Shown: piece after piece, positions 2,903-19,969 of the stretch | Numbering within the stretch: the first letter of the stretch is position 1 | Layout of the letters: the number at the start of each line of letters is the position of its first letter | Origin: Halorubrum sp. BOL3-1 | GTDB lineage: Archaea > Halobacteriota > Halobacteria > Halobacteriales > Haloferacaceae | Assembly (NCBI RefSeq): GCF_004114375.1 | Contig: NZ_CP034692.1 | Span: 2,542,001 to 2,606,000, forward strand | DNA: 64,000 nt | Reading direction: 5' to 3' | Program-made: the position numbers and the translations under genes | Notes under the pieces: generated by a model | What the model saw: the letters and a program-made list of their open reading frames with translations, nothing else | What the model was told of the DNA's origin: nothing | The model's database searches: none

Positions 2903-4629
2903 GCGCGGACGACACCCCAGACGATCCGGCCGACTCCCCGCCCGCCGACTCCCCGCACATCCTCTCCGGGCGGTCCGCGCTCGACGACGAGGAGGCGACC
3001 GACGACGGGGCGGACGAGACCTTCCGCACCTTCTGGGCCGACGTGGCCGCCGACGAGGTCGAGTCCGAAGACCCCGACGATCCGATCGTGATCAAGGGGG
3101 GCGTCTCCCCGTCGGGCGTCGCTCACCTCGGTAACTTCAACGAGATCATGCGCGGCTACTTCGTTGCGGAGGTCCTCCGCGACCGGGGCCACGAGGTCCG
3201 ACAGGTGTTCTCCTCCGACGACAGGGACCCGCTGCGGAAGGTCCCGCGCAAGCTGGCGAACGGCGACGGCGACATCGTCGGGTTGGGTGAGGTCGACGCG
3301 GGCGCGCTCGGCCGCAACCTCGGGAAGCCGTACACGTCCATTCCAGACCCGTTCGGTGAGTCGGAATCGTACGCGGCCCACTTCGCGGGCCTGCTGAAGG
3401 CCGACGCCGACCGGCTGAACGTCCCCGTCGAGATGCTCTCAAACACCGAGCTGTACGCCGACGGTGACTTCGACGACGCGGTCCGCACGGTCCTCGGTGA
3501 CGTCGAGCGCGTCCGGGAGGTGCTCTCCGAGTATCAGGACAAGGTCGACGACGAGTACGTCCCCTTCAATCCGGTCTGTGAGGCGTGCGGGAAGGTCACG
3601 GAGACGGTGACCGACATCGACCTCGACCGCGAGACCGTCGACTACGTCTGTACCGACATGGAGGCCGGCGGCAACGTCATCGAGGGGTGCGGTCACGACG
3701 GGACCGCGACGTTCCGGGAGGGGAAGCTCCCGTGGCGGCTGGAGTGGCCCGCTCAGTGGGGCGTCCTCGACGTCGACTTCGAGCCGTTCGGCAAGGACCA
3801 CGCGGAGGGGTCGTGGCCCTCCGGCGTCGACGTCGCGCGGAACGTCTTCGGCCGGGATCCGCCCGTGCCGATGGTGTACGAGTGGTTCACCCTCAACGGC
3901 GAGGCGTTCTCCTCCTCCGAGGGCAACGTCGTCACGGTCCAGGAGCTGCTGGAACTACTCGAACCCGAGGTGTTGCGCTACTTCTTCGCGCTTCACCCGA
4001 AGAGGGCCCGCGACCTGGACATCGAGCGGCTCGACCAGCTCGTCGACCGCTTCGACCGGTTCGAGCGCGCGTACTTCGGCGGGGTCGACGACCCGGATCT
4101 GGCCGCCTTCGCCGAACGCGCCTATCCGTTCGTCGTCGATCGCGTCGACGACCCGCCGGCGGAGAAACCGATCCGGCTCCCGTACACGTTCGCGGCGGTC
4201 CTCGGAATGGTCGACGACCCCGACTTCCGCGAGCGCCTCGCCCGCGACGAGGGGCACATTCCGGACGACGCGGACGCCGACGCGGTCGACGCCGCGCTCG
4301 CCCGCGTCGAGCAGGCCAGGAACTGGGCCGAGCGGACCGGAAACGAGTACGACTACCGGCTCCAGACTGCGCTTCCCGACGCCGAGTTCGACGCGGATGT
4401 CGCCGCCGCGCTCGACGACCTGGCCGACTTCGTCGCGGCCGGCAACGACGGTGAGGCGATCCAGGCGGAGATGTACGAGACCGCCCGCGACCACGATGTC
4501 GAGGTGAGCGACTTCTTCGCGGCGGGCTACCGGCTGTTCTTCGACGACACGCAGGGACCGCGGCTCGGGGAGTTCCTCGGTGAACTGGAGCGAGAGTACG
4601 TCGTCGACAGGCTCCGCCGGGAGGCGTAG
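2899..4629 (+). CDS. lysS: Lysyl-tRNA synthetase, class I
   Basis: 576 residues. Class I LysRS charges tRNA-Lys and replaces the class II enzyme in many archaea. The HIGH-like signature is in SPSGVAHLGNFNE (about residues 72-84), the KMSKS-like loop is SSSEGN (about 338-343), and a cysteine cluster (CEACGK ... CGHDG) near 230-260 is probably a zinc site. The first 40 residues are an acidic disordered extension, usual in halophiles. Translation is coupled to pyrH by the ATGA overlap, and the stop codon abuts the next ATG. Confidence 0.95.
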   Translation: MSADDTPDDPADSPPADSPHILSGRSALDDEEATDDGADETFRTFWADVAADEVESEDPDDPIVIKGGVSPSGVAHLGNFNEIMRGYFVAEVLRDRGHEVRQVFSSDDRDPLRKVPRKLANGDGDIVGLGEVDAGALGRNLGKPYTSIPDPFGESESYAAHFAGLLKADADRLNVPVEMLSNTELYADGDFDDAVRTVLGDVERVREVLSEYQDKVDDEYVPFNPVCEACGKVTETVTDIDLDRETVDYVCTDMEAGGNVIEGCGHDGTATFREGKLPWRLEWPAQWGVLDVDFEPFGKDHAEGSWPSGVDVARNVFGRDPPVPMVYEWFTLNGEAFSSSEGNVVTVQELLELLEPEVLRYFFALHPKRARDLDIERLDQLVDRFDRFERAYFGGVDDPDLAAFAERAYPFVVDRVDDPPAEKPIRLPYTFAAVLGMVDDPDFRERLARDEGHIPDDADADAVDAALARVEQARNWAERTGNEYDYRLQTALPDAEFDADVAAALDDLADFVAAGNDGEAIQAEMYETARDHDVEVSDFFAAGYRLFFDDTQGPRLGEFLGELEREYVVDRLRREA

Positions 4630-4875
4630 ATGCCGGAGGACCGCTCGCTCGACGACTTCGCTCCGGACGGCGACGCCGAGACCGAAAACGGTGACACCGA
4701 GACCGACAACCCCGGCTCGGACGCCGCCGCCGGCGACTCGGACGGGGTCGACCCCGCGACTGCCACCTCAACGTGGCACGCCGACGGCGCGGAGTGCGAC
4801 CGGTGCGGCGAGCGGGTCGAGCGCCGCTGGCGCGACGGTGACGCCCTCGTCTGTGCCGACTGCGCGTCGTGGTGA
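4630..4875 (+). CDS. Small C-terminal zinc-ribbon protein (DUF7573-type)
   Basis: 81 residues starting directly after the lysS stop codon. Residues 1-45 are acidic and low in complexity; residues 48-81 form one zinc ribbon (CDRCGERVERRWRDGDALVCADC) with four cysteines in two CxxC pairs. Such a protein beside LysRS recurs in haloarchaea. It may be an accessory to LysRS or RNA, but that is inferred only from the operon. The DUF number is from memory. Confidence 0.78.
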   Translation: MPEDRSLDDFAPDGDAETENGDTETDNPGSDAAAGDSDGVDPATATSTWHADGAECDRCGERVERRWRDGDALVCADCASW

Positions 4876-4980
4876 TCGCCCCTCGTTGCGGATGTTCCGA
4901 TGTCCAGCGGTCAAAATTTAAGTCGCCGGCCGCCGAGGCGTTCGTACGAGAAAATTCATTGGGTAACAAATTAAATATAA
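4876..4980 (+). promoter_or_regulatory. AT-rich promoter region of the histidine kinase gene
   Basis: AATTTAAG at 4915-4922 is the clearest TATA-like box; the 30 bases just before the ATG (AAATTAAATATAA) are also very AT-rich. If 4915-4922 is used the mRNA would have a leader of about 35 bases. Confidence 0.35.
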
Positions 4981-5892
4981 ATGAAATATAACTTGAAACC
5001 CATTTACGCGCGGTCGGTGACCGTTCTCACGGCGGCGTACCTCTGTCTCGGGGCGCTGGTCGCGGTCGCGGTCGACCTCGCGGTCGCGTCTGCGAGCGGC
5101 TCCGCGGTCGGGTGGACGCCGACTCGCCTCGTCGGCGACTGGCTGTTGGTCGCGGGATCCGGCGGGGTCTTCTACGGTGCGGTCACCCACCATCGCCGTC
5201 GGGTGGAGGCGGCTCGTCGGGATCTCGAAACTTCTAACCAGAAGTTACAGGTTTTGAGCCGCGTTTTTCGGCACAACGTACGCAACGACCTCAACGTGAT
5301 TCAGGGATACACGGATCTGCTCGCTGACCGGGTCGAAGACGACCGGAGCGAGCAGTACCTGGAGACGATCCGGCAGACGACCGACGACGTCGTCGAGATC
5401 AGCGAGAAGCTCCGCGCGGTCGAGGACGCGTCGCCCGAACCACCGGACTGCCGCGTCGACCTCGTCGACGCGGTCCACGAGGCGGTCGGCGTCCTCGACG
5501 CCGACTGCGCCTCGGTCACCGTCGAGGCGCCGCCGGAGGCGTGGATCTGCGCGGACGACTCCGTGGAGTTCCCGATCCGCGAGGTGTTCGAGAACGCCGT
5601 CACCCACAACGACGGCGCGACGCGGCGCGTGGAGGCGACGATCCGCGAGAACGGGACGACCACCTGTCTGGAGGTCATCGACAACGGACCCGGGATCCCC
5701 TCGGACGAGTGCGCCGTGTTGCAGGCCGAAGAGGAGACGCCGCTCTCGCACGCGAGCAGCATCGGGCTGTGGCTCGTCAAGTGGACGTGTGAGACGCAGG
5801 GCGGCACAGTCCGGTTCGACGCGAACGACGACGGCACCACGGTTCGGCTCCGGTTCGAGTCGGCGGCGTCTCCCGCTACTCCAACTCGGTGA
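4981..5892 (+). CDS. Membrane sensor histidine kinase
   Basis: 303 residues. Two membrane segments (about 12-37 and 52-70) are joined by a short external loop, so there is little room for a ligand domain. A HisKA-like dimerisation region follows with the phosphoacceptor in FRHNVRNDLNVIQGY (His98). The HATPase_c domain shows the N box ENAVTHND, G1 box DNGPGIP and G2 box GIGLWLVKW. The form HNxRNDL is typical of haloarchaeal kinases. No response regulator is adjacent, so the partner is unknown. Its last 17 bases overlap the convergent zinc-ribbon gene. Confidence 0.88.
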   Translation: MKYNLKPIYARSVTVLTAAYLCLGALVAVAVDLAVASASGSAVGWTPTRLVGDWLLVAGSGGVFYGAVTHHRRRVEAARRDLETSNQKLQVLSRVFRHNVRNDLNVIQGYTDLLADRVEDDRSEQYLETIRQTTDDVVEISEKLRAVEDASPEPPDCRVDLVDAVHEAVGVLDADCASVTVEAPPEAWICADDSVEFPIREVFENAVTHNDGATRRVEATIRENGTTTCLEVIDNGPGIPSDECAVLQAEEETPLSHASSIGLWLVKWTCETQGGTVRFDANDDGTTVRLRFESAASPATPTR

Positions 5893-14657: not shown

Positions 14658-15893
14658 TCAACCGACGATCAGCGGTCCGATCAGCACCCCCATCAGGTGG
14701 ACGCGCCGCGCGCCGACACGCGGCGGGACCAGTCCCAGCGCGCCCGCGGCGAGGAGGACGCCGACGCCGAATCCCCCGGCGAACGCGTACGAGAGGAGCG
14801 CGAGCAGCCCCAGCACGCCGAGTGACAGTCGGGTGTAGTCGGCGTTGCCGACGATCCGGAGGTACGGGTCACCGAGCAGCACGACCAGGGCGAACCCGAG
14901 GCACGCGGCGGTCGCGGCCGCGACGAGCAGTATCGGTAACGCGAACGGGACGCCGGCCCGATCGATCGCGACAGTCACGCCCGTCCGCGGTGTCCCGAGT
15001 GCGACCAGCGCGAACAGCGCGAACACGGTGTTTGCCGTGTTCGCGCCGCTCGTCGCCACGACGAACCCGCGGTCGGCCGACGCGCGCGGCACCGCCGGCA
15101 TCGCGGCCACGGCGGCGATGGCGGCCGACACGCCCGGTACGTATCCCACCACCGCGCCGGCGAGCGAGCCGGCGCCCGCGCTCGTCCCGAGGTCGCGCGC
15201 GTCCATCGCGATCCGGGGATCCGCCTGCGGCGGGACACCCTCGCCGCCGAGAGCGTCGACGAGGACCGGGACGCCGAACAGCCCGGCGAAGAGCGGCGCG
15301 AGGACGCCGCCGGTCGCGAGCGGCGCCGCGGGGTCGACGTCGAGCGTTGCCAGCCCGAGCGCGGCGCTCGCGAGGAACGCGACCAGCCCTCCGATAGCGG
15401 CCCGGCGCGACGACTCCGTGAGCACGAGCATCGCGACGACGACGCCGAGCAGGACCGGCAGGTGCGCCCGAAGCGTCGGGTACCACCGCACCATGAGCCA
15501 CGTGATCGGCACCGCCAGCGGGACCGCGAGCGCGACCGCCAGCCCGGAGCCGACCGCGGAGAGCCGGATCGCCTCTCGCCCCCGCCCGGCGATCACCAGC
15601 CGGTGACCGGGGAGCGCGGCGACCGCGGTCGCGGCGTCGGGGACGCCGAGCGCGAGCGCGGGAACGATGTCAAGAAACGAGTGAACGACGCCGGCGCCGA
15701 GCATCGCGACGCCGACGAACAGCGGGTCGGCCGGTACCGACGGGGCGAATCCGGCCAGAAGCAGCGCGAAGTTGTTGGCGTGAAGTCCGGGAACCAACCC
15801 GCTCGCGGTTCCGAGCGCGACGCCGCCGAGCAGGAACGCGAGTGCGCCCGCCGCGAACGTCGGGTCGACCACCGGCCGCACGAGCGCGTCCAT
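14658..15893 (-). CDS. Tripartite tricarboxylate transporter permease (TctA family)
   Basis: 411 residues with about ten to twelve membrane segments. The early GLVPGLHANNFALLLAGF motif and the central AVVGYVPGVSAAIAAVAAMP motif are the two inverted-repeat signatures of TctA/DUF112 permeases. Bacterial members work with TctB and a periplasmic TctC, but neither gene is near. Solitary long TctA-like permeases are common in haloarchaea; the substrate is unknown. GACTTAAATC at 15918-15927 reads as a TATA-like box on the minus strand. Confidence 0.88.
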   Translation of the reverse strand: MDALVRPVVDPTFAAGALAFLLGGVALGTASGLVPGLHANNFALLLAGFAPSVPADPLFVGVAMLGAGVVHSFLDIVPALALGVPDAATAVAALPGHRLVIAGRGREAIRLSAVGSGLAVALAVPLAVPITWLMVRWYPTLRAHLPVLLGVVVAMLVLTESSRRAAIGGLVAFLASAALGLATLDVDPAAPLATGGVLAPLFAGLFGVPVLVDALGGEGVPPQADPRIAMDARDLGTSAGAGSLAGAVVGYVPGVSAAIAAVAAMPAVPRASADRGFVVATSGANTANTVFALFALVALGTPRTGVTVAIDRAGVPFALPILLVAAATAACLGFALVVLLGDPYLRIVGNADYTRLSLGVLGLLALLSYAFAGGFGVGVLLAAGALGLVPPRVGARRVHLMGVLIGPLIVG

Positions 15894-15979: not shown

Positions 15980-16174
15980 TCAGGCTGACTGCGCGGCCTG
16001 CGCCTTCTTCTGCGTGACGTAGCCCGCGATCCGGTTGCGAACGCCCTTCGACTCGACGGTGGTCAGGGCCGTGACGCTGTCCTTGTTCGTCTCGAAGTCT
16101 GTGTTGAACGAGTCGGGATACCGCTCTAGCAGGACTTTCCCGAGCTGTTTGATGTACTTCGGCTTGATGGCCAT
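15980..16174 (-). CDS. rps17e: 30S ribosomal protein S17e
   Basis: 64 residues: MAIKPKYIKQLGKVLLERYP ... DFETNKDSVTALTTVESKGVRNRIAGYVTQKK. Complete match to the small archaeal S17e. A TATA-like box (CCTTTTAGTT on the minus strand, 16197-16206) precedes the ATG. Confidence 0.96.
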   Translation of the reverse strand: MAIKPKYIKQLGKVLLERYPDSFNTDFETNKDSVTALTTVESKGVRNRIAGYVTQKKAQAAQSA

Positions 16175-16270: not shown

Positions 16271-16966
16271 TCACGACTCCTCGGGACGCCCCTCCGCGAG
16301 TTCCCGCCAGCCGGTCGCCTCGTCGATCCGCGCGAACGCCTCGCGCTCGGCCGGTCCGCCGCAGCGGTCGACCACGTCGGCGAAGTACCGGAGCCGGTCG
16401 AGCAGTTCCTCGGTGTCGAACGTCGGTACGTTCAACCGCGAGGCGGCCACCGTGGCGTCGACGACCGCGCCGAAGCCCCGGTTCACCGTCGGCACGCGCT
16501 CGGTCGCGACCGCCGACTCGACCGGGTCCAACTCCCACGTCCGGATCGTCGTGTCACCCTCGGTCTCGGCTGCGACCGCCTCGACGCGGACCTCGACCCA
16601 CGCGTCGGCGCTCGGCAGCACCGCCTCGTCGGTTTCTCTGATCGTGAGCGCCGCGTCCACGAACGTCCGCGGATCGACGGTGAACTGCACCACGCCGCCC
16701 CCGCGCTCGGTGAAGTTCCGCCAGGTTCGGGTGCGCCCGTAGGTCCGCGCGGTGACCGTGTCCTCGGGGGTGTCCGGCGCGTGAATCCCCAGTGCCGCGG
16801 CGTTCCACCGGTCGTTCGGTCCCAGCGTCGTCACGACGGACTCGGTGACGCCACGGAGCGGTACCGGCCAGCCCTCGGGGACGACGCCGGCCGGGTCGGT
16901 CCGTTCGGTCGAGCCGTCGGTCGGGTTGGTCCGTTCGGTCGAGCCGTCGGCCGGGTCCGGCGTCAC
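16271..16966 (-). CDS. DUF447 family protein (flavin-reductase-like fold)
   Basis: 231 residues from a GTG whose sequence GTGA overlaps the stop of the gene upstream. After a 35-residue linker, PLRGVTESVVTTLGPNDRWNAAALGIH starts the DUF447 domain, then ARTYGRTRTWRNFTERGGGVVQFTVDPRTFVDAAL, features of a split-barrel FMN-binding fold. The C-terminal helical part ends RIDEATGWRELAEG. It is the last of four coupled genes starting with cofD, so a flavin or F420-related role is plausible but unproven. The linker contains a 30-base tandem duplication (16891-16950). Confidence 0.82.
   Translation of the reverse strand: MTPDPADGSTERTNPTDGSTERTDPAGVVPEGWPVPLRGVTESVVTTLGPNDRWNAAALGIHAPDTPEDTVTARTYGRTRTWRNFTERGGGVVQFTVDPRTFVDAALTIRETDEAVLPSADAWVEVRVEAVAAETEGDTTIRTWELDPVESAVATERVPTVNRGFGAVVDATVAASRLNVPTFDTEELLDRLRYFADVVDRCGGPAEREAFARIDEATGWRELAEGRPEES
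16891..16950 (-). repeat. 30-base tandem duplication in the DUF447 linker
   Basis: Two adjacent 30-base units (16891-16920, 16921-16950) differ at two positions and encode DGSTERT-type ten-residue repeats in the disordered N-terminus; a recent slippage event that keeps the frame. Confidence 0.8.
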
Positions 16967-17934
16967 GGCGCCACCTCCGCGCCGCGCCGGAGCGCGACGA
17001 ACAGCGCCGCACAGGTGAGGTCGGCGGTCGTCCCCGGGTTGATTCCCTCGGCGACGAACGCCTCCGCCAGCGACTCGGCGGCGTCGAGGTCGGCCCCGTG
17101 GACGGTGTCGCGATCGACCGCGTCGACGCTCCCGACCGCCCCCGTCGCGTCCTCCTCGTCCGGTTCGAGGACCGCCCGCGCTCGCGCGCTCGCCTCGCGA
17201 GCCGTCTCGGCCCCACGCGTCGACGCGACGAGGGTGTCCGGCTCCGCGGCGAGCAGTCCAAGGAACGCCCGCGCGGCCCGGTCTGCGAGCGGTCCCTCGT
17301 CGGCCAGGATCCACTCGGTCGCGCGGAACGTCCGCGGGAACCCCTCGACCCACTCCGCGGCGTTGCGGTCGGGGACGCGCTCCGGGTCGTCGGGGTCGGC
17401 CGACAGCGCCAGCACGTCGCGCAGCGTAGCCCCGCGCTCGCGGAGCGCAGGCTCGGCGTCACTCCCGCGCCGCACGTCGAGGTCGTCCGCGCCCGCCGGC
17501 GGGTCGTCGACCGCGACATCGACGGTCTCGAACGCCCGGTAGAAGGCGACCGCGTCGTCGACGGTCGCGGCCCGACAGACCGCGTCGACGCCGGCGGGCG
17601 AGCAGTCGCGGTCGGGGTCCGCGGTCGCGCGGACTAACGGCGTCAACAGCAGCAGACAGCCGAACTGTGTGTTCGTGCCGGCGCGCGCGGCCATCCCTTC
17701 CACGGCGCGCTCGAAGGCGTTACCGACCGCGACCGTCTCGCCCGCCGCCAGTTCGAGTCCGGGCCGAGCGCCGACGGCGCCCCCGAGGAACGACTCGAAC
17801 CGCAGGTCGTCGAGGTCGCGGCGGCGGTCGACGTTCCCCGGCTTCGGCGTCCCGGAGACCTCCAACAGGAGCGCGAGCGTCGCGTCGTCGACGGGGCCGG
17901 TAGCGCCCGTGTCCCGGCGTTCGCGACGTGTCAC
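16963..17934 (-). CDS. Triphosphoribosyl-dephospho-CoA synthase-like protein (CitG family)
   Basis: 323 residues. The LLLEVSGTPKPGNVDRRRD start contains the family's SxxPKPGNVD active-site motif, followed by GTNTQFGCLLLLTPL and the C-terminal EGINPGTTADLTCAALFV motif. Bacterial CitG makes the prosthetic group of citrate lyase, but no citrate lyase or malonate decarboxylase gene is present, so the archaeal substrate is probably a different nucleotide. It starts at GTG, overlapping the gene upstream by four bases, and overlaps DUF447 by four at its end. Confidence 0.82.
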   Translation of the reverse strand: MTRRERRDTGATGPVDDATLALLLEVSGTPKPGNVDRRRDLDDLRFESFLGGAVGARPGLELAAGETVAVGNAFERAVEGMAARAGTNTQFGCLLLLTPLVRATADPDRDCSPAGVDAVCRAATVDDAVAFYRAFETVDVAVDDPPAGADDLDVRRGSDAEPALRERGATLRDVLALSADPDDPERVPDRNAAEWVEGFPRTFRATEWILADEGPLADRAARAFLGLLAAEPDTLVASTRGAETAREASARARAVLEPDEEDATGAVGSVDAVDRDTVHGADLDAAESLAEAFVAEGINPGTTADLTCAALFVALRRGAEVAP

Positions 17935-18788
17935 GGTTGCGCCTCCGCTTCCGGCTCCGCGCCGCCGTCGCGGTCGCGTAGCGCTCCAGTCCGCCAGTCG
18001 GAGACGGCGTCCGCGACGCGCGCGAGGACGGGCGGCTCCTCCGTCGGGCGGCCGACGCTCACCGCGTCGGCGCCGCGGGCCGCGTACTCCGCGACCGTCT
18101 CCCGGCCGCGAACGCCGTTGTTGGCGACGAGTGTCAGGTCGGCGAGCTCGTCCTCCTTGTCCGCCTCGTCGATCGCTGCCGCGACCCCACCGACGACCGC
18201 CTCCGAGTCCATCGCGTCGACGTGGATCCAGTCCGCGCCGGCCCCAGCGACGGTCTCCGCGGCCGCGACGAGGTCGATGCCGGGGACCTCAGCGCGGACC
18301 TTCACGCTCGTCGTCGCGCCCGTCTCGACCGCGGCGGCGACGTACCGCGCCAGGCGGTCCGGATCGCCTAGGAGCGACTCGCCGCAGCCGACCGCGCGCA
18401 GCTCCGGCTGCCGGCAGTGGGCGTTGACCTCGCAGACCGCGTCGCGGTCGGCGCAGATCTCGGCGGCCTCGCGGACCGGTTCCGGGGTCGCGCTCCGGAC
18501 GTTGATCCCCGCTCGAACCGGCGCGTCGGCCGCCGCGACCGCGTCGAGCTGCTCGGCGACGAACGCGAGCGGATCGGCCGGGAGGAACTCCTCGCGCCCG
18601 CGGGCGACTAGGTCGCGGGCGGCGGCGCGGCTGGCCGGGTCGAGCGCGACGCCGCCGAGCAGCGCGACGCTGACGTGTTCCGCGGCGTTTCGCGCCCACT
18701 CGGCGTCCGCGGCGCCGCTGAGACTCGCGGCGACGAGGAACGGCTCATCGCCAGCTGGCGCGTCGGTTCCGTCGTCGCTCCGGCTCAC
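17931..18788 (-). CDS. tRNA-dihydrouridine synthase-like protein (archaeal MJ0144-like)
   Basis: 285 residues from the GTG at 18788 (overlap with the cofD stop); longer upstream readings are shadows of cofD. FMN-barrel features: [19 protein letters not shown] start, [12 protein letters not shown] with a Cys at the position of the Dus catalytic cysteine, TSVKVRAEV, and the C-terminal [17 protein letters not shown] and GADAVSVGR phosphate-binding parts. It is shorter than true Dus proteins and appears to lack the tRNA-binding helical domain, so the substrate may not be tRNA. Position beside cofD suggests an F420- or flavin-linked role. Confidence 0.75.
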
Positions 18789-19822
18789 TCCGCACCCTCC
18801 CGCGGCTGCGCCGCGTCCGCCGAGTCGGGACCGATGGCCTCCAACGCGCGTTCGCAGGCGTGGGCGACGCGCTCGGCGTCGTCGCCGTCGTCGATCCGCG
18901 TGTCGGTACGCTCGACGTACCGGTCGAGTCCGGTCGGGTCCGCCTCGTCGAGGACGAACGCGTCCGCGAAGGGGTACGCCGCCGCGACGCCCGCGGTCGA
19001 CGGGTCGCGGCCGACCCCCTCCATCAGCGCCGCGGCCGGTCCGGAGAACACCTCGTCGCCCACGAACGGCGAGACGGCGACGACGGGCGTTTCCCTGAGC
19101 GCGCGCTCGAAGCCGGGGAGCGCCAGCATCGGGCCGAGGCTCGTCACGGGGTTCGACGGGCCAATCACGACCGGGTCGGCGAGCGCCTCGCGCACGGCGT
19201 CGGTCGGCTCGGCATCCTCGGCCCCCCGGAACTCTACGTCGGCGACCGGCGGCTCGCCCCGGCGAGCGACCCAGTACTCTTGGAAGTGGATCGTCTCGCC
19301 CGCCTCCGTGTGGATCAGCGTCGCGACCGGGTCGTCGGACATCGGGAGGAGGTCGACGTTGAGGTCGAAGGCGTCCGCGAGGACCCGGACCGCCTCGGTG
19401 AGCGTGCGCCCCTCGTCGAGCAGGCTCGTGCGCGTGAGGTGGACCGCGCGGTCGCGGTCTCCGATCTCTATGAACTCCCCGACCGCAGAGAAGCGCCGCC
19501 AGCGCGCGATCTCGCGGCCGGCGGTCTGTGCCGCGTCGCCGAGGTACCGGGGGACCGTTTCGAGTTCGACCGCGTCCGCGAGCCGGCGCAGCTCGTTGTG
19601 GGTCGCGGTCGTGTCCCCGTCGATCCCCCACCACGTCTCCCGGTCCAACACTCCGCCCCCGGCGAACAGCACGGTGTCGACGTCCGGGCAGACGAGGTGG
19701 CCGCCGATCTCGACGTCGTCGCCCGTGTTGGCGACGACCGTTGTCTCGGTTGGGTCCCACACCCGAGCCGCGCCGTCGAGGAGCTTCGGCGTGCCCGTCC
19801 CTCCGGCGAGGAAGGTTACCAT
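18785..19822 (-). CDS. cofD: 2-phospho-L-lactate transferase (F420 biosynthesis)
   Basis: 345 residues from the ATG at 19822; upstream in-frame sequence is non-coding. The start [19 protein letters not shown] is the family's dinucleotide-binding loop, followed by [19 protein letters not shown] and [20 protein letters not shown]. CofD joins an activated phospholactate-type unit to Fo, giving dehydro-F420-0 or F420-0. It begins a run of four genes joined by 4-bp stop/start overlaps, so all four are probably translated in a fixed ratio. Confidence 0.95.
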
Positions 19823-19969
19823 ACCGACGCAAGGCGACGCCCGAATTTGTATCCTCGCCTCTGTGGGCAACCCAGCGAGCCGGAGTCCGAGACCGGAGCG
19901 CACACAGCCCACCTATAAGCGAACGACGACGCCAGCCCGACCTTCACCGTCGGCGCGTGCCTGCGAGCG

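Follow-up and report, generated by a model that had tools for sequence, protein, structure and literature searches.

After beta-ribofuranosylaminobenzene 5'-phosphate (RFAP) has been made by MptG, the beta-RFAP synthase that catalyzes the committed step of tetrahydromethanopterin (H4MPT) synthesis, the pathway still has to reduce the C-riboside to ribitol and to attach an alpha-ribosyl phosphate. We know of no genes assigned to these late steps, ribitol formation and ribosylation. In methylotrophic bacteria the gene before fae is orf7, described in passages of PMC3615186 as encoding an H4MPT-linked protein without assigned function, and passages of PMC8305020 regard haloarchaea as lacking the enzymes specific to methanopterin. 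Here we describe a four-gene operon in a 64,000-nucleotide stretch of Halorubrum sp. BOL3-1 (NZ_CP034692.1, positions 2,542,001 to 2,606,000; hereafter the window), which encodes CofD, a Dus-like flavin mononucleotide (FMN) barrel, a CitG-like protein (hereafter CitG) and a DUF447 protein. The four genes form a real, conserved operon composed of two functional units, cofD-Dus and CitG-DUF447. The most likely place of CitG and DUF447 is in a ribosyl-arm pathway of the H4MPT type and not in F420 or coenzyme A (CoA) synthesis. We consider it fairly probable that both proteins, together with an unlinked MptG homologue, make up a module taken over from H4MPT biosynthesis that serves an unknown haloarchaeal product, with cofD-Dus as a separate unit.

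The two units come apart in three near-complete haloarchaea, two of genus g12 (G027 and G077) and one of genus g13 (G136), which lack CitG and DUF447 with cofD still adjoining the Dus-like gene; the MptG homologue is missing from the same three genomes. The co-loss survey covered 214 haloarchaeal genomes of the order, 176 of which form a good set (at least 90% complete, at most 5% contaminated). The MptG homologue (TIGR00144) was found in 205 of the 214 genomes, above the cut-off in 196, CitG in 202 and DUF447 in 206. MptG is absent from nine genomes (G013, G027, G077, G136, G141, G197, G233, G251 and G296), CitG from 12 (G012, G027, G077, G136, G139, G141, G144, G150, G152, G154, G162 and G296) and DUF447 from eight (G027, G077, G136, G141, G152, G162, G277 and G296). 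Within the good set the absences number four, three and four, respectively, with G027, G077 and G136 common to all three families; MptG alone is missing in G197 and DUF447 alone in G277, both of which are fragmented genomes. The co-absence of MptG and CitG in the good set is significant (Fisher test, 4.5e-6, genomes treated as independent) and comprises at least two independent losses, one in genus g12 and the other in G136, whose sampled congeners in g13 retain CitG and MptG. In the genome of the window, 363 kb separate MptG and CitG; the co-loss is therefore not one deletion, and linkage provides no explanation. The neighbours of haloarchaeal MptG include genes for a KaiC-like ATPase and a TFIIS-like zinc ribbon, and no H4MPT gene was found among the neighbours read. 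Among 14 known control genomes, DUF447 and MptG have an identical distribution (M. jannaschii, Haloferax, Sulfolobus acidocaldarius and M. acetivorans), and CitG is found in these four plus E. coli. Moreover, the haloarchaeal CitG sequences form one clade with a support of 1.0 in a tree of 12 sequences, as inheritance would give.

A search for all four families in one set of 120 genomes from the phylum, in which hits at most 2,500 bases apart on one strand and one contig were counted as neighbours, found DUF447 in 112, CitG in 114 and CofD in 114 genomes, and TIGR00736 of the Dus-like protein in 74 (E ≤0.001), 11 of them above the curated cut-off. CitG and DUF447 are adjacent in 97 of the 110 genomes with both, namely 16/16 haloarchaea and 81/94 others, the latter figure, like all adjacency figures for non-haloarchaea, being a lower bound because of contig breaks; this adjacency spans 21 of 24 families, and co-occurrence thus reaches well outside the haloarchaeal clade. 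Dus and CitG are adjacent in 14/15 haloarchaea compared to 42/56 others, whereas cofD adjoins Dus in all 18 haloarchaea with both but in only 7 of the 56 others with both. The complete four-gene row is found in 20 of the 120 genomes (14 haloarchaea, five of family f11 and one of f25), and cofD is also found near CitG in f11, f16, f19, f24 and f25. The CitG-DUF447 pair is the widespread core, and cofD joined it in some lineages. In one locus of family f24 (L159), genes for a DUF763 protein (3905-5026) and a calcineurin-like phosphoesterase (4978-5691) are located between cofD and CitG-DUF447.

The pair also resides in bacterial H4MPT islands. Out of 512 relatives, we took the 80 best-ranking fae loci, most of them from Methylobacterium and Methylorubrum and the rest, by title, from other Alphaproteobacteria, and scanned them with profiles built from the archaeal loci. 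CitG is immediately upstream of fae in all 80, MptG is present in 74, and DUF447 in 33, against about 0.24 expected by chance; the same profile scan detected neither cofD nor Dus in any of the 80 loci. The island of Methyloligella halotolerans (L109) contains MptG, ATP-grasp, Mch, MptN/RimK-like, CitG, Fae, MfnF-like, DUF447, TIGR00284 (pteroate-synthase-like), amino-acid kinase and MfnB. The first-pass annotation of the window had suggested that the four genes belong to one pathway making or using a flavin/deazaflavin or CoA-like cofactor, and had named a lack of co-occurrence beyond the clade as grounds for refutation; the phylum-wide adjacency of CitG and DUF447 shows no such lack. A conserved operon of cofactor type is indeed present, but the shared CofD/F420 or CoA-like route finds no support, as cofD-Dus persists when CitG-DUF447 is lost, and CitG and DUF447 travel with MptG and sit in bacterial H4MPT/methylofuran islands without cofD.

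Gene content and relatives suggest a haloarchaeal origin of the window, and Haloferax served as a positive control in the family searches. All four genes lie on the minus strand of the window. CofD (18785..19822), the 2-phospho-L-lactate transferase of F420 biosynthesis, scores 372.6 bits against the TIGR01819 equivalog (cut-off 257.45) and also matches PF01933. The Dus-like TIM barrel of the MJ0144 family (17931..18788) has 35.8 bits to PF01207 (gathering score 20.4) and 123.5 bits to TIGR00736, under the cut-off of 218.7. The all-helical CitG (16963..17934), of the archaeal/methylotroph type, has 193.1 bits to PF01874, and DUF447 (16271..16966), an FMN-binding split-barrel protein, carries both N and C domains (PF04289, 82.6 bits; PF20766, 64.6 bits). 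We regard the family membership of CofD, CitG and DUF447 as firm and that of the Dus-like protein as moderately supported. The CofD label given earlier is confirmed by the equivalog, and the earlier descriptions as a Dus-like barrel, a ribosyl-transferase-like protein and a split-barrel flavoprotein fit the family and fold matches.

The genes are connected by GTGA stop/start overlaps at all three junctions, cofD/Dus (18785..18788), Dus/CitG (17931..17934) and CitG/DUF447 (16963..16966), as first reported; the strict co-translation claimed along with them would be a deduction from this spacing. In a permissive count over 11 haloarchaeal loci, 10 of them with dus, in which the start nearest -4 was chosen for each junction, citG/duf447 offers a start codon at -4 in 9/11 loci and dus/citG in 6/10, while the nearest start of cofD/dus is at -4 in 4/10 and at -1 in another 4/10. 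The overlaps are more than chance would give. An A+T-rich, TATA-like stretch GGATACAAATT (19844..19854, minus strand), read by eye about 22-32 bases 5' of the cofD ATG, is a candidate promoter element whose position would fit a leaderless operon transcript. The next gene downstream, encoding ribosomal protein S17e (15980..16174, minus strand; PF00833), starts 96 bases past DUF447 and has its own TATA-like stretch AACCCTTTTAG ahead of it; DUF447 is thus probably the last gene of the operon, with S17e outside. A gene for a TctA-family tricarboxylate transporter is found at 14658-15893 on the minus strand of the window.

Fold matching revealed that the predicted CitG model (mean pLDDT 82.6) has a sole match at E <0.001, the Archaeoglobus CitG-like protein 3h9p, which is also its only close PDB relative. 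The motifs KPGN-V, N-T-x-x-G-like and PG-x-x-AD are conserved in the alignment of CitG from haloarchaea to methylotrophs. However, the window protein misses the NCBIfam CitG/MdcB equivalogs NF002315, TIGR03132 and TIGR03125, with 20.3, 19.7 and 17.2 bits against 280, 282 and 272. The predicted DUF447 model (mean pLDDT 82.6) matches 2iml (E 2.2e-14), 2nr4 and 2ptf, followed by flavin reductases, and 2iml, 2ptf, 2nr4 and 3b5m are found by sequence and fold together; 2iml, 2nr4 and 2ptf are titled as FMN-bound or riboflavin-phosphate-bound. The fold match fits an FMN-binding split barrel for the window protein. We infer from these families that CitG may catalyze ATP-dependent ribosyl transfer and DUF447 an FMN-dependent reduction. 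Passages of PMC13140500 tie DUF447 to cannulae; nothing in the present data backs this link.

The Dus-like protein retains the catalytic-Cys motif VNAHC(125)RQ, K163 and H189, with C125 present in 94% of 50 aligned rows. Its substrate may, as a default guess from the family, be tRNA uridine; the protein misses the DusB equivalog (16.6 against 293 bits). Its relatives L137, L138 and L134 carry the marker-9 C-terminal domain TIGR03277 after the barrel, and a model search found this domain neither in the window protein nor in the haloarchaeal L131 or the f25 form L161. In a locus of family f26 (L162), the gene at 4400-5377 encodes a marker-9 domain behind an N-terminal part that matches no Dus family and is devoid of the Cys motif; this gene, too, immediately precedes CitG-DUF447.

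What we observe is the families, the gene order, the co-loss, the FMN-bound relatives and the place in bacterial H4MPT islands; all substrates and the sequence of reactions in the putative mechanism below are inferred from these. Unit 1, cofD for F420 and the Dus-like flavoprotein, would share one transcript with unit 2. The MptG homologue would convert phosphoribosyl pyrophosphate and an aromatic acid like p-aminobenzoate (pABA) to a C-riboside, the riboside ring of which DUF447, as an FMN enzyme, would reduce towards the open ribitol chain. With loss of adenine, ATP would then supply the 5-(tri)phosphoribosyl group that CitG transfers onto a ribitol hydroxyl. True CitG carries out the same transfer on dephospho-CoA, making an alpha-ribosyl bond from ATP. 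DUF447 and CitG are placed at the ribitol and ribosylation steps because H4MPT needs both and true CitG makes such a bond. The product in methanogens and methylotrophs would be H4MPT. In haloarchaea it would have to differ, because the H4MPT-type pteroate synthase is missing, and may be either a pterin-free ribosylated arylamine or an H4MPT-like pterin for which a synthase of the FolP type is used.

Several observations weigh against a module derived from H4MPT biosynthesis. The haloarchaeal argument is carried by only two or three loss events and not by 176 independent trials. Small metagenome-assembled genomes of family f2 (G012, G144, G154 and G162; about 1 Mb, completeness 58-78%) lack CitG and Mch but contain MptG and, in most cases, DUF447. 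The one haloarchaeal MptG searched (L171) misses the RFAP synthase equivalog NF040726 with 170 against 328 bits, and passages of Pfeiffer and Dyall-Smith (PMC8305020) state that HVO_2628 likely does not make RFAP. The H4MPT-type pteroate synthase TIGR00284 is above the cut-off in 0/214 haloarchaea, with 3/14 control genomes positive, and folate-type dihydropteroate synthase (DHPS) is present in 212/214 and in all 176 good genomes. Mch was found in 203/214 genomes including all four that lack the MptG-CitG-DUF447 trio (G027, G077, G136 and G296), and was undetected in family f9 (G019, G148, G158 and G167), where the trio is retained; the predicted loss of Mch with the trio thus failed. The uncoupling of Mch agrees with passages that hold haloarchaeal Mch to work on folate (PMC8305020) and that describe mch and mer as retained in haloarchaea with unclear roles (PMC7599335).

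A methylotroph MptG misses the RFAP synthase equivalog, too (135 bits). The glycine loop and R26 are conserved in haloarchaeal MptG, and D19 is replaced by N in all 20 aligned rows (two row pairs being the same gene); in the methanogen enzyme, according to passages of PMC6787355, D19N raises the KM for pABA threefold and leaves it still partly active. Weak hits to TIGR00284 occur in 53/214 haloarchaea, nearly all in frames of about 790-1150 residues, and that of the window's genome falls inside the folate-type DHPS hit. Since TIGR00284 is missing and the distribution of Mch is independent of the trio, we rejected the simple form of a full H4MPT pathway in haloarchaea. Among the matches listed, most haloarchaea have two folate-type DHPS matches, and genus g12 has one. 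A second FolP copy as the partner of the trio was unsupported by the same matches, with one in G027, G077 and G296 of g12 but two in the trio-less G136, and one also in the trio-bearing G019, G148, G158, G138 and G188. A more specific proposal, which we put forward tentatively, is that almost all haloarchaea make, besides folate, a previously undescribed methaniline-like compound or pterin (aryl-ribitol-ribosyl phosphate) via the MptG-like, DUF447 and CitG-like proteins. Any coupling would be by the folate-type pteroate synthase, the product would be a second one-carbon carrier or an unrelated ribosyl-aryl cofactor, and CitG-like and DUF447 would fill the ribitol-reduction and ribosylation gaps of H4MPT.

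The alternative that survives best, though we regard it as unlikely, is that the haloarchaeal trio was recruited to an unrelated task, such as another ribosyl compound, and that the H4MPT link applies to methanogens and methylotrophs only. This would agree with the missing H4MPT-type DHPS, the folate DHPS of every good genome, the uncoupled Mch and the D19-to-N replacement, but the trio stays together through at least two losses, which is easiest if the enzymes still share one another's products. Improbable is a reading in which all four proteins serve F420, with CitG and DUF447 modifying or using the deazaflavin. Although cofD is first in the haloarchaeal operon, near CitG in five further families and widespread in the phylum, cofD and Dus remain after the loss of CitG and DUF447, cofD seldom adjoins Dus outside the haloarchaea and never occurs in the 80 methylotroph loci, and Sulfolobus acidocaldarius is positive for CitG, DUF447 and MptG and negative for CofD. 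We rejected a common F420 or CoA route of the four genes because the units separate in G027, G077 and G136 and the CitG equivalog models fail; the scores to these CoA-prosthetic-group synthase models fall far short (17-20 against 272-282 bits). It is very improbable that CitG and DUF447 serve methanofuran/methylofuran instead of H4MPT synthesis: MfnB, MfnF-like and amino-acid-kinase genes are near DUF447 in the bacterial island read, but the co-loss partner is MptG, and to our knowledge neither haloarchaea nor Sulfolobus produce methanofuran. In addition, the methylofuran study names orf5, orfY, orf17, orf9, orf21 and orf22, and orf7 is not among the genes in its passages (PMC8141765). A merely historical neighbourhood with a shared promoter and no shared function is scarcely credible, for it fits our own reading of cofD-Dus versus CitG-DUF447 but leaves CitG-DUF447 adjacency (97/110 genomes, 21/24 families) and DUF447 near CitG in 33/80 bacterial loci, which are far beyond drift.

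CitG and DUF447 are moved out of the F420 and CoA grouping and become concrete candidates for the late H4MPT steps, testable in a methylotroph amenable to genetics, and the retained, co-lost trio suggests that part of the H4MPT pathway still does something in haloarchaea. A link of CitG/DUF447 to H4MPT in haloarchaea was not found in our literature search, which covered few subscription journals, and there may be earlier studies of orf7 in methylotrophs; sulfohalopterin and related names returned nothing useful.

Compared to known systems, the Dus-like protein shares the barrel and the Cys, Lys and His positions with the Dus tRNA-dihydrouridine synthases but fails the DusB equivalog. CitG shares the PF01874 domain with the ATP:dephospho-CoA triphosphoribosyl transferases CitG/MdcB but is about 250 bits short of their equivalog models; we do not claim membership, and it may work similarly. 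DUF447 has the family and fold of the FMN-bound DUF447 structures and flavin reductases, and the titles of these PDB entries name neither substrate nor partner. The methanogen-side cluster of marker-9 Dus, CitG and DUF447 has the same order on one strand, related CitG and DUF447 and the same barrel, whereas its tested Dus-like proteins carry TIGR03277, which the haloarchaeal ones lack, and cofD is usually elsewhere. The methylotroph H4MPT islands (mch-orf5-orf7-fae-orf17; orf9) share with the haloarchaeal system a CitG-like protein, there at the position of orf7 (passages of PMC3615186), a DUF447 gene in the island and MptG nearby. By contrast, cofD and Dus take the place of mch/fae in the haloarchaeal operon, MptG is unlinked to it, and TIGR00284 is below the cut-off throughout the haloarchaeal genomes. 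Altogether, it is already known that the bacterial genes lie among H4MPT genes, and what we add is the same connection for the haloarchaeal operon and for the co-lost trio.

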